DNA from: a virus
DNA: 26,665 nucleotides
IMG/VR virus record: IMGVR_UViG_3300042197_002134
Span: 1 to 26,665 of that record
Strand: one strand, 5' to 3'
Under the pieces are notes generated by a model that was not told where the DNA came from, did no database searches, and worked only from the letters and a program-made list of their open reading frames with translations. How positions within the stretch are numbered: the first letter of the stretch is position 1; every line of letters starts with the position of its first letter. A program made the position numbers and the translations under genes. Below, piece after piece: positions 13,881 to 24,538 of the stretch.

Positions 13881-14711
13881 TTATTCAAATTTAGTTTTTA
13901 CTCCTCCTCCTGTATGATAAATATCTAATCCACTTTCATCATCAAAATGTTTTTTCATTGCTTGAACATTTTTTAAATCGTCGTCTGAAAATCCAATATA
14001 AGGTGTGAAGTAATTTGAAATCTTGTTTTTGAAATAAGCCTTTTCTTGTAGTCTTTGAGACAAGTTTTTAACATATTCCATAAATTGTCTCATTGCACTA
14101 ACTTTTAATTCCTCGGGATTGGCAGCAGATCCTTCACCAAAACTAACAGGGTGGTATTTACACATCTCTAAATATGTTTCGATAAGTTCATCGTCAGTTA
14201 AATCGTCTTCATCGGAAATATCTCTATACTTTCTTAGATTTTTGACAATTTCTTTTTTGTCCAAACCATACTTGTTCTTGTTGATTAAATTGTGAATAGT
14301 ATCTTTTAATACATTAGGGGTATGTCCTCTAGCGGTGATTATTGCAAAAATTGAACCGTTATTAACCGCCTCAACAAAATCGGACCATGCCGGACCAATT
14401 TCAGCGGACATTGCATCGGTCATAAATTTTTTATCTCCCGAAACTCGGAAATCTCTGAAAGCCTCATCGTCAAAATCAACTATGGTGTTACCTTCATATT
14501 TAACAGGTTTCTTTCCAATTTTAGACCTATACTCTGCAAAATCTTCCGTAGACATACCAACAACGTTACCTTTATCATTTTTTAAATATATTTTTGTTGG
14601 CATATACATTAAATTGTCATCCCAATCAAACGCATAATATTTCATGGTCGGTTTTAATTGGTCTTGTATAATTTCAGATATAATATTTTTTACTTTATTA
14701 GAATAATTCAT
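13881..14711 (-). CDS. HAD-superfamily phosphatase-like protein with N-terminal leader
   Basis: A 276-residue protein with haloacid dehalogenase motifs. Motif I is FDWDDN (nucleophile D29, acid/base D31), motif II is IITARGH (T126) and motif IV is GFSDDDLKNV (acidic residues 243-245). A motif III lysine is less certain. Residues 40-115 form a cap-like insert and 150-230 a helical insert. HAD enzymes usually remove phosphate from small metabolites, nucleotides or DNA ends; the substrate here cannot be told. The catalytic fold seems to begin at M23 (MKYYAFDWDDN), leaving a 22-residue helical leader containing IISE, a possible prohead-protease site. It lies between the tube and sheath genes, where T4 has none. 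The start at 14711 is supported by an adjacent TATTTATT motif; M23 is an alternative start. Confidence 0.8.
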   Translation of the reverse strand: MNYSNKVKNIISEIIQDQLKPTMKYYAFDWDDNLMYMPTKIYLKNDKGNVVGMSTEDFAEYRSKIGKKPVKYEGNTIVDFDDEAFRDFRVSGDKKFMTDAMSAEIGPAWSDFVEAVNNGSIFAIITARGHTPNVLKDTIHNLINKNKYGLDKKEIVKNLRKYRDISDEDDLTDDELIETYLEMCKYHPVSFGEGSAANPEELKVSAMRQFMEYVKNLSQRLQEKAYFKNKISNYFTPYIGFSDDDLKNVQAMKKHFDDESGLDIYHTGGGVKTKFE

Positions 14712-19957: not shown

Positions 19958-19971
19958 TATATTGTTTTATT

Positions 19972-19979
19972 GATAAATA
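19972..19979 (-). promoter_or_regulatory. TATTTATC motif upstream of the neck/gp15 pair
   Basis: The minus-strand TATTTATC lies 14 bases before the ATG at 19957, just past the terminator of the upstream 137-aa gene. Confidence 0.5.
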
Positions 19980-20000
19980 TTCAGACGATTATTTTATAAA

Positions 20001-20030
20001 TAAAAAACCCCTCCAATGAAGAGGGGTTTT
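20001..20030 (-). terminator. Rho-independent terminator after the 137-aa gene
   Basis: On the minus strand AAAACCCCTC, a seven-base loop and GAGGGGTTTTTTA form a perfect ten-base stem ending in a T run, about 20 bases past the stop. The flanking A tract could allow weak function on the plus strand too. Confidence 0.92.
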
Positions 20031-20049
20031 GAACATATATAAACCTTTG

Positions 20050-20463
20050 TTAACCTAAACTCAAAGCATATTTAACGGCAGCCTCAGCTCCCGATTTACC
20101 CGCATCAAAAGATTTTAAATTTTGACCACCTTTGTTGTAAACTTTTATCTTCCAAACCCCCGTGTTACCAGAACCACAATCTAAAAAAACATTAGTTCCT
20201 TTGTCATGACTTCCTTTATACATGTAAGTGCAACACTTATAGTGACACGGTCTATTTAAACCTGGAACTTCGGGTTCAGTTTTAGACACAAAACCCGCCG
20301 CTTTTAGTTTTGGTGCCAAATCTAATTTCCACCAATCTCTATCAGCACCGCCTTCATCTTTGATTTTTGGGTCACCACCACCCTCACTTTTTGGTTGTTC
20401 ACTAATAACTCGTCTAACAATACGAGCCAAATCTTGTTCTGTAAGCCTTATTATTCTTTTCAT
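20050..20463 (-). CDS. Small Cys-containing protein with a possible capsid-targeting leader
   Basis: A 137-residue protein of unknown function. Residues 1-22 form a basic amphipathic helix containing RLTE (E9) and ending VISE (E22), both matching the (L/I)-x-E sites cut by T4-type prohead proteases. A disordered Gly/Asp/Lys-rich stretch (23-42) follows. The rest (43-137) looks like a compact domain with four cysteines (C73, C77, C78, C96) and a WKIKVYNKGG strand. The layout of short helical leader, cleavage motif and small soluble domain is that of T4 internal head proteins, which are packaged with DNA and injected. There is no secretion signal. It has its own TATTTATA motif and a strong terminator, so it is a single-gene unit. 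The role is inferred. Confidence 0.75.
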   Translation of the reverse strand: MKRIIRLTEQDLARIVRRVISEQPKSEGGGDPKIKDEGGADRDWWKLDLAPKLKAAGFVSKTEPEVPGLNRPCHYKCCTYMYKGSHDKGTNVFLDCGSGNTGVWKIKVYNKGGQNLKSFDAGKSGAEAAVKYALSLG

Positions 20464-20480: not shown

Positions 20481-20488
20481 TATAAATA
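20481..20488 (-). promoter_or_regulatory. TATTTATA motif upstream of the 137-aa gene
   Basis: The minus-strand TATTTATA lies 17 bases before the ATG at 20463. A second minus-strand copy, TATTTATC (20542 to 20535), lies further up in the same 113-base divergent gap. Confidence 0.5.
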
Positions 20489-20554
20489 TATCAAAAAAAA
20501 AAACAATCTTTTTTATTAAAAAATTGATTTCATTGATAAATATCTTTTTTATTA

Positions 20555-22387: not shown

Positions 22388-24538
22388 ATGAAAGTTTACA
22401 TTAAATACGAATCTCCCGAATTAAAAAAAAACAAAAATTTTGTAGAAAAATTTATCGATCTGCTACAAAAAGAATATCCTTTGAAAACAAATTTGAAAAT
22501 AATGTTTTTGAATGATAGAAATGGAGAAATGTCTACAGGAAGTAGAAGGGGGGACAATTTGATTAAAGTGCTGGCCAAAGGTAGATTGAACAGAGATATC
22601 ATGAGAACTTTGGCACATGAATGGGTTCATGAATACCAAATGACAATTTTAAAAAGAAAACAAGGCCCAAATATTGGGGGAGTCAATGAAGATGAGGCGA
22701 ACGCATTTGCAGGTCAAATTGTTAAAAAATTTGAAGAATCGTATCCCGAACTTGAATCAATAATGTATGAATCAAAATCAATTACAGGAAAATTAAATCT
22801 TTTGACGGAACAAATATTATTGACTGAAAAAAATTTAATTAAGGATAACCTGATTTTAGAAATGAAAAAAATTGGTATTGAAAAATTACCATATTCATAT
22901 TCATCTCTGAAAAAATTTATTGATACAAAAACTATGGATATTCACTACAACAAACATTACAAAGGTTATGTTAATAAGTTGAATAAGTCTTTAAAAAACA
23001 AAGACGGTGACATGGAATTAGAAGAAATTATAAAATCTATAAGTAGATTCGACACTAAGATCAGAAACAATGCTGGCGGTGCGTTCAATCATGCGTTGTT
23101 TTGGAAAATGTTATCACCAAAAAAACAAATACCCAAAGGAGAGATATACAAACAAATAAAAAAAGATTTCGGAAATATTAAAAAAATGAAAGACGAATTT
23201 AATCAAGCCGCCAAAGATCGGTTTGGTTCTGGATGGGCTTGGTTATATCTTTCTAAAGATGGTAAATTAAAAATAATGTCCACCCCAAATCAAGATAATC
23301 CTTTAATGAATGTTGTAAAAAAAGGTGGTTTTCCACTTTTAGGTTTAGATGTTTGGGAACACGCTTATTATTTGAAATACCAAAATAAGAGAGACGAATA
23401 TATAAATAATTTTTGGAATGTTGTGAATTGGGAGTTTGTTGAGGAGTTATATTTGTCAAAAACTAAAAAAGATAAAAAAACTATTAAAGAAGATACTTCC
23501 GATAAAGAAATTATCAATGAGATTAGTAAAACTTTTGCATTCCCATATACCGCAAAAGGATTAAGAGAACTTATGCATTCCCAATATGTTGGTTGTTACA
23601 ATAAACAATATAAGGATGGTTGTTTAGGTAGAATAGAAACAAAAAAATGCACAACTGAATTAGGTATTTTGGGTGGTGATTATTCTGAAAAAAAATTCGG
23701 AGGAACCAGTCAGTGGTCCATTATCAATAGATTCGATACCAACAGTCGTGTAAAAAAAGAAATTTACAACATTTGGTTAGAAGAAACTGAAGGATCAACC
23801 GACTTTAAAACATGGATTAAAGACCACGCATCTGATTTATTTTCAAACGATGGAATGTATTTGGATCGATTGGTAGAACCAAATATAGGAACAATTGAGA
23901 TTGGCAAAGAGAATGAAAGTTACGCAAAACAAATAATTAGACAAATATATAATCTCAGTCCTGATCAAGAAGGTATATCGTATGAATTATACGAACATTG
24001 TTCGGGGGATATTAACGATAGAAAAAAAGGACAAGATATTGTTTTAATTATAAAAGGGGGGGACACAATATATTTTCAAGTTAAACCATTTTTAAATCAA
24101 AATAACGACATTGAATTTTTTGATGGAGGAGATAGAGGATACTACTTTAAGGTCTCATCATGGCATAGACAAACAAAATATAAAGGAGAAAATGTCGATG
24201 TAATTTTATATGTAGACAGAACAGAAGACAAATATATAATGTTTAGAAATGATCATAATAAAATGTTAACAGTTAGTAATCCAAGAACACAACCACCTTT
24301 TCATATCTTCTATTATGAAATGCCACTACAGAGTAACTTTAAAATTCCTTTACAAAAAGAAATTCCTAAAACACCTGTTAAAAAGAGTATTGCCAAAGAT
24401 GTAAAAAAAGAAATTGAATTTTATAAAGAAAGAATTAATTATTTTACTAACAAAATAAAAGAACTTGGAGGTGAAAATCAAGATATAAATGAAATGATTA
24501 ATTTTTATAAAGAAGAGTTGTCTAAGACAATTATATAG
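22388..24538 (+). CDS. Multidomain protein: HExxH metallopeptidase-like, Mn-type superoxide dismutase, nuclease-like domain
   Basis: A 716-residue fusion. Residues 1-130 hold a zinc peptidase-like domain with HEWVH at 77-81 and a downstream EDEANAFA (E103 a likely third ligand). Residues 135-160 form a joint with LTE, LTE and ILE in close succession. Residues 163-357 are a full iron/manganese superoxide dismutase domain: LPYSY opening, ligands H186, H235, D321 and H325, and gateway Y194. Gly231 and Gln302 in NQDNPLM point to the manganese type. A second joint (360-380) contains IKE and INE. Residues 380-650 include D550 and Q564-V-K566 with E510 upstream, the layout of a PD-(D/E)xK nuclease. 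A coiled coil ends the protein. Superoxide dismutase converts superoxide to peroxide and oxygen. The (L/I)-x-E joints suggest cleavage into separate capsid-packaged parts, which is inference. Confidence 0.9.
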   Translation: MKVYIKYESPELKKNKNFVEKFIDLLQKEYPLKTNLKIMFLNDRNGEMSTGSRRGDNLIKVLAKGRLNRDIMRTLAHEWVHEYQMTILKRKQGPNIGGVNEDEANAFAGQIVKKFEESYPELESIMYESKSITGKLNLLTEQILLTEKNLIKDNLILEMKKIGIEKLPYSYSSLKKFIDTKTMDIHYNKHYKGYVNKLNKSLKNKDGDMELEEIIKSISRFDTKIRNNAGGAFNHALFWKMLSPKKQIPKGEIYKQIKKDFGNIKKMKDEFNQAAKDRFGSGWAWLYLSKDGKLKIMSTPNQDNPLMNVVKKGGFPLLGLDVWEHAYYLKYQNKRDEYINNFWNVVNWEFVEELYLSKTKKDKKTIKEDTSDKEIINEISKTFAFPYTAKGLRELMHSQYVGCYNKQYKDGCLGRIETKKCTTELGILGGDYSEKKFGGTSQWSIINRFDTNSRVKKEIYNIWLEETEGSTDFKTWIKDHASDLFSNDGMYLDRLVEPNIGTIEIGKENESYAKQIIRQIYNLSPDQEGISYELYEHCSGDINDRKKGQDIVLIIKGGDTIYFQVKPFLNQNNDIEFFDGGDRGYYFKVSSWHRQTKYKGENVDVILYVDRTEDKYIMFRNDHNKMLTVSNPRTQPPFHIFYYEMPLQSNFKIPLQKEIPKTPVKKSIAKDVKKEIEFYKERINYFTNKIKELGGENQDINEMINFYKEELSKTII

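Follow-up and report, generated by a model that had tools for sequence, protein, structure and literature searches.

A portable N-terminal leader of large T4-like phages is a probable capsid-targeting sequence

A leader gene in a record with T4-type tail genes

The stretch of DNA that we analyzed (the window), a virus record of 26,665 bases, has T4-type tail genes. One of its genes encodes a baseplate protein that matches Pfam T4_baseplate, and others encode a tube-like protein and a 1,111-aa sheath-like protein (both labels assigned by eye). The window also has an open reading frame for a 137-aa protein (Table 1) with the motifs RLTE at residues 6-9 and VISE at residues 19-22, and with cysteines at residues 73, 77, 78, and 96. 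The initial annotation had described the first 22 residues as a basic amphipathic segment that contains both motifs, and the translation, pI, and hydrophobic moment all bear this out. The pI was 11.4 for the leader and 9.0 for the mature part, and the hydrophobic moment of the leader was 0.68 at 100 degrees (p = 0.009 versus 5000 shuffles). An AlphaFold model made from the single sequence drew a helix at residues 9-21, with a mean pLDDT of 50.6 that is too weak for us to rely on.

Table 1. Coordinates of features of the leader gene and its surroundings in the window
Feature	Position	Strand	Comment
137-aa ORF	20050-20463	minus	ATG start
N-terminal leader MKRIIRLTEQDLARIVRRVISE, residues 1-22	20398..20463	minus	Common to the N-termini of 239 of 244 leader-model matches
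Codon of E9, end of RLTE	20437..20439	minus	Candidate first cleavage site; LTE is followed by Q here but mostly by S in relatives
Codon of E22, end of VISE	20398..20400	minus	Candidate final cleavage site; 124 of 128 proteins have [ILVM]xE that ends at residue 22 or 26
Presumed mature cargo (115 aa), linker and four-Cys domain	20053..20397	minus	No relative found
Promoter-like TATTTATA (TATAAATA on the plus strand)	20481..20488	minus	Roughly 25 to 18 nt upstream of the ATG
Terminator-like hairpin and T run	20004..20030	minus	Directly 3' of the leader-gene stop; 11-pair stem
Intergenic element, copy TTGATAAATATTC (plus strand)	19970..19982		Lower edge of the inserted cassette
Same intergenic element, copy TCATTGATAAATATC (plus strand)	20530..20544		Upper edge of the inserted cassette

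The leader is the part of the 137-aa protein that has relatives. Searches of Pfam and PHROG with the whole protein gave no match, and the best identities in a search for relatives fell in the leader rather than in the mature domain. The last 114 residues matched only themselves among the 6790 ORFs compared, and comparison of the mature cargo with phages gave nothing better than E 0.7. An Rfam scan of the window also gave no match.

The leader gene appears to have been inserted between two genes that are otherwise close together. The flanking 170-aa protein has relatives that are 88-98% identical. The two flanking genes are separated by 53-60 bases in relatives versus 619 in the window, and the slot between them was empty in all 75 relatives that hold both flanking starts (from the best 80 of 247 relatives; the other five did not hold both). 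An intergenic element that is present once in relatives is present twice in the window, with one copy on each side of the leader gene. Based on the close spacing in relatives and the element on both sides, we conclude that the leader gene is a cassette added to this phage, with its own promoter-like element and terminator-like hairpin. There were three terminator-like sites in the window versus 0.3 in shuffled sequence, and TATTTAT was found upstream of several tail genes as well as of the leader gene.

The promoter-like element is common upstream of leader genes. Of 187 leader genes, 107 had ATATTTAT in the preceding 120 nt, versus 7.0 expected, and it was within 60 nt upstream of 93 of 154 leader genes versus 216 of 923 other ORFs. 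It was also within 80 nt upstream of genes of the head module, including those for the scaffold (17 of 20), the protease (16 of 20), and another head-module family (15 of 15), but that for the capsid protein in only 8 of 20.

We looked for leaders on the other proteins encoded in the window. Only a 276-aa HAD-like protein (13881-14711, minus strand) came near (score -0.4), and we do not claim it as a leader protein; its start, MNYSNKVKNIISE, is just under the threshold for a minimal leader and is followed by a part beginning MKYYAFDWDD. Separately, the gene at 22388-24538 (plus strand) encodes a 716-aa fused protein with a HEWVH metallopeptidase-like part and an Fe/Mn superoxide dismutase (Pfam E 7e-42), and its C-terminal part resembles, by eye, orf318 of the head module in locus L162. 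Because its linker holds several LxE sites (LTE, LTE, and ILE), this protein may be a polyprotein that is cut.

Spread and extent of the leader

The leader is found on many different proteins. We searched with a degenerate DNA pattern for the first nine residues, MK[KR]IIRLTE, and found matches in at least 120 stretches of viral contigs, versus one match for a control pattern with permuted codons. The pattern had three matches in 84,980 prokaryote species genomes (257 Gb), of which one was a leader protein, encoded on a 4-kb contig that had been binned in a MAG, and the other two were not leader proteins. Among the matches listed, and with the window included, there were 193 distinct proteins with a leader-like start. 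The mature parts of the 191 that had enough mature sequence for clustering fell into 143 clusters, 113 of them singletons (single linkage, E <= 1e-3, under which remote relatives may be split). The initial annotation had proposed a search for the same leader on different domains, and that is the pattern found among these matches. As judged by these comparisons, the 22-residue tag is also on well over a hundred apparently unrelated proteins of uncultured T4-like phages. For example, a 175-aa protein in L122 that is unrelated to the window protein starts with a near copy of the window leader, MARIIRLTEQDLARIVRRVIKE, that is identical at 20 of 22 residues.

Leader genes are numerous in individual phages and patchy among relatives. 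There were 46 leader-bearing records of at least 60 kb; we searched 22 of them, and all 22 had 3 to 16 copies of the leader. Neighboring leaders were on different cargoes in several contigs, with five in 1.6 kb in L035, and tandem leader genes were frequent (37 adjacent pairs). A class I leader was present in only three of 11 records searched out of the relatives of the window's neighbor protein.

The cargoes are largely unlike known families. A Pfam scan of 143 leader proteins matched only five families, and a scan of the same number for defence families gave four weak single matches. The charge of the cargo was mixed, with a pI under 6 in 108 of 190 and over 8 in 69 of 190. Chitinase class I was matched by one leader protein, and a PHROG endolysin family was strongly matched by one (E 1e-36); a lysis-type enzyme bearing a head leader would be odd. 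The protein from the 4550 (plus) frame of L055 starts with a leader and has another leader helix in its middle. It seems to be a fusion of two leader proteins, because its second half resembles, by eye, a separate leader protein in L057. We also observed a second type of start, MKIIITESQ or MKYLITESQL, on about 40 mostly unrelated-looking proteins (L002, L099, L119, and others), with seven in L002 alone.

The leader was confined to uncultured phages in the material we searched. A tblastn search of annotated phage records with the leader gave nothing at E 10, and a regular expression for a leader-like N-terminus found none in 150 of the 160 kb of Flavobacterium phage immuto or in 41-kb stretches of LR756508 and Mel-JY01. 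When the capsid protein was compared, the nearest cultured relatives included phages of Flavobacterium and Microcystis. The literature searched, which included parts of PMC9026906, PMC10229621, PMC10052503, and PMC7824862, contained no virion proteomics for this group of phages and no cultured phage with this leader. IIRLTESDL, RIVKRVI, IIRLTE, and RLTESDL were absent from it, and it held no publication that had 'capsid targeting sequence' together with phage metagenomics.

Conservation ends sharply at E22 or E26. Among 128 leader proteins that were chosen on residues 1-9 only, 124 had [ILVM]-x-E ending at residue 22 (100 proteins) or residue 26 (24 proteins), compared to 80 of 1787 other ORFs (32 and 48, respectively). 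The longer variants, with four additional residues, likewise finish in [ILV]xE. The information content was 3.4 bits at E22; it was down to about 1.0 bit by residue 23 and was 0.2-0.4 bits at residue 27 and beyond. L7 and E9 were invariant across 167 leaders, and L7 was encoded by TTA (70), CTT (35), CTA (19), and TTG (4) in 128 leaders. This drift of synonymous third positions under constant residues indicates that selection is on the peptide and not on the DNA.

The leader is almost always at the N-terminus. A profile built from 123 leaders gave 244 domain matches in 5876 ORFs, and those outside the N-terminus (Table 1) were three C-terminal and two internal matches; one of the internal matches looks like an N-terminus. 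All three C-terminal copies (L104, L171, and L176) are at the extreme C-terminus of members of one basic protein family that is present also in head-module loci.

The residues that follow the two conserved glutamates are different. The residue after E22 in 142 leaders was mostly Q, N, S, E, G, or D (Q in 37, N in 28, S in 16) and was A in one. A small residue after the cut Glu, mainly Ala, is a feature of T4-type sites that is thus not found at E22. Residue 10, after E9, was S in 137 of 173 leaders.

Protease, capsid gene, and head-module proteins in leader-bearing records

Leader-bearing records commonly encode a gp21-type protease. Peptidase_S77 was found above the Pfam cut-off in 30 of the 46 large leader-bearing records, and a Gp23 capsid gene in 27, all of which also had the protease. 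None of 14 control genomes matched. The largest record that was negative for the protease, G043, shares four leader genes with G023, each shifted by the same 16,499 bases. G023 has its capsid gene and protease in its first 15 kb, indicating that G043 lacks these genes because the record starts after them. Another leader record, G047, has gp23 less than 2 kb from its end, and no protease was found on this fragment. The 11 relatives described above had the protease in two, the capsid gene in three, and the leader in three.

A gp21-like protease had been named in the initial annotation as something to find in the genome. It was found in the large leader records, including every one with a capsid gene, but the window is a 26.7-kb fragment on which we found neither a protease nor a head module. 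Because of this, the protease of the window phage is deduced from relatives. One of them, G003, encodes a neighbor protein 93% identical to that of the window, and has leader genes as well as the protease, whose gene is at 100750-101184.

The head proteins of these phages have sites of the type found in the leader. In all 20 head-module loci (19 of them distinct; L159 and L160 are from near-identical records), the conserved mature part of the capsid protein is immediately preceded, near residue 60, by LI[N/Y]E and then A. The orf441 family (385-458 aa), whose gene is close to that for the terminase, has pre-sequences that range from 7 to 43 residues, and all seven distinct pre-sequences among its eight members finish in [ILV]xE, after which the conserved mature part starts. 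The [ILV]xE boundary before the mature start is also found in 12 of 15 members of a basic family that is encoded near the capsid gene; of the three not counted, the L014 member is cut by the edge of the locus and those of L164 and L070 start inside the protein. Some pre-sequences in these two families are the leader helix itself, as in MDRLNKIIKRVIKE followed by ATSD and MGNRELERLVRKIIKE followed by APID.

The leader helix also occurs in a minimal form. A minimal leader-like helix was found directly after 42 of 2195 first methionines versus 7 of 8449 inner methionines at the same score. We scored all 359 proteins of the 20 head-module loci with a leader-helix profile. The scaffold and capsid proteins, which we had considered as carriers, were dropped; none of 20 in either case was above 99% of the null with the 13-residue profile, and the segment ISELVKESL of the scaffold is leader-like by eye only. 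Two portal genes were also observed, one in L167 (11401-15423, 1340 codons) and one in L166 (3874-6969, 1031 codons). That of L167 has an insert beginning CIAGDTKIATTDGF that looks intein-like by eye.

Function of the leader

The leader has both similarities to and differences from the T4 capsid-targeting sequences (CTS). T4 IPII and IPIII have a common 10-residue leader, MKTYQEFIAE, followed by A. IPI has TITE followed by A, which we take to be its cut site, and gp23 has FLTE followed by AEI. According to the parts of PMC9026906 that we consulted, gp21 cleaves after L/I-x-E, ten residues of IPIII suffice for packing, and the propeptide lengths of IPIII and gp23 place the cut sites after IAE and FLTE. 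A 10-aa CTS was used for loading LacI (PMC10229621, in part). Like the CTS of IPI, IPII, IPIII, and Alt, the leader is a short N-terminal segment common to unrelated mature parts, it starts with MK and ends in (I/L)-x-E, and the phage group encodes a gp21-type protease. In contrast to the T4 CTS, it has 22 or 26 residues, two LxE-type sites, many more cargoes, and an E22 without a following Ala, and its cargo is mixed in charge whereas the T4 internal proteins are basic. Beyond MK and (I/L)xE, no shared sequence was evident when the two were compared by reading. Membership of the leader in the T4 CTS family, as far as sequence goes, is therefore not established.

Two other systems are comparable in part. 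The capsid protein of the leader phages is like the T4 gp23 family (PF07068) in having a roughly 60-residue propeptide that ends in LI[N/Y]E followed by A, and the LTE before A in T4 gp23 is the same as that in the leader. However, the PF07068 propeptide is long, is on a structural shell protein, and has no profile similarity to the leader. In the giant phage SPN3US, a phage protease cuts head proteins that are ejected with the DNA, and two have short propeptides, of 20 and 24 residues. Unlike the leader, the SPN3US motif is A-x-E, most head proteins are uncut, and no common leader sequence is described in the parts of the article consulted (PMC10052503, for both statements on SPN3US).

Based on these comparisons, we conclude that the leader is a real, shared, and portable element of large T4-like phages, and we think it probable (about 0.7) that it is a capsid-targeting leader that acts like the T4 CTS propeptides and is unrelated to them in sequence. 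Late in infection, the leader helix would bring the attached cargo into the prohead core. There, a gp21-type S77 protease would cut after [I/L/V]-x-E, at LTE (residue 9), VISE (residue 22), or both, and the cut cargo would stay in the head and be ejected with the DNA. We infer the packaging, cleavage, and ejection of leader proteins from sequence patterns. The cargo would most likely be a host-directed or DNA-protecting accessory protein.

A cut at E22 is less certain than the conservation implies. The site at E22 is followed by Ala in one of 142 leaders, compared to all 20 capsid sites. The candidate site at E9, which is followed by S, fits better on this point, and cleavage may be there, after LTE, if Ala or some other small residue is required by the protease. 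The short MKIIITE-type starts would also suggest a candidate cut at residue 9. Capsid targeting, as proposed in the initial annotation, gains from the presence of the leader on unrelated domains and of the protease in relatives, but the head proteins have a different residue after the Glu than the leader has after E22.

The difference at E22 is what would be expected if the leader were an uncut docking helix that binds a late phage partner (the scaffold, the portal, or some other core protein) and is retained on the cargo, packaged or not, with E22 as the end of the helix and not a cleavage site. We consider this unlikely. Conservation stops sharply at E22 or E26, the same [ILV]xE boundary is on two head-module families with pre-sequences of varying length, and the protease was present in 27 of 27 leader records that bear the capsid gene. 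That the leader is basic and amphipathic would also fit a host-membrane or cell-export signal. However, it has no hydrophobic core, its terminal Glu motif matches the phage head protease, and it is in virus records with T4-type heads and shares a promoter element with head genes, all of which make such a signal very unlikely.

The segment might be kept as a recombination site for swapping of gene bodies and not as a working peptide. Insertion of the window gene between genes that nearly abut in relatives and the tandem arrangement of leader genes could be explained in this way. This explanation is already weakened by the codon drift, and the upstream DNA has only A/T-rich start-site and promoter signals, while leader copies are also at the C-termini of proteins; we regard it as highly improbable. 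Alternatively, KKIIRLTE followed by a helix resembles the first half of a ribbon-helix-helix-type domain, such that the leader could be a remnant of a small DNA-binding fold (strand-helix) or a regulatory N-terminal domain. We give this almost no weight. No such Pfam family was found among the 143 leader proteins, and conservation did not extend past residue 22 into the region expected to form the second helix.

Phage proteins that are carried in the head and injected are normally identified virion by virion. If the leader is a packing label, then its nine-residue pattern would list the head-borne cargo of uncultured phages from metagenomes and would be an address tag for loading of proteins into large phage heads. 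We see an even chance of a broader scheme in large uncultured T4-like phages, in which one portable peptide is a packaging code, used at either end of a protein and in standard, four-residue-longer, or minimal helix-only forms, and each genome has 3 to 16 swappable head-borne cassettes that have their own promoter and terminator and are gained and lost. If so, the leader alone would reveal a head-borne set of proteins from well over a hundred families, most of them unknown. Because the leader proteins matched only five Pfam families, this set would be a rich source of untested proteins, some of which may act against host defence.
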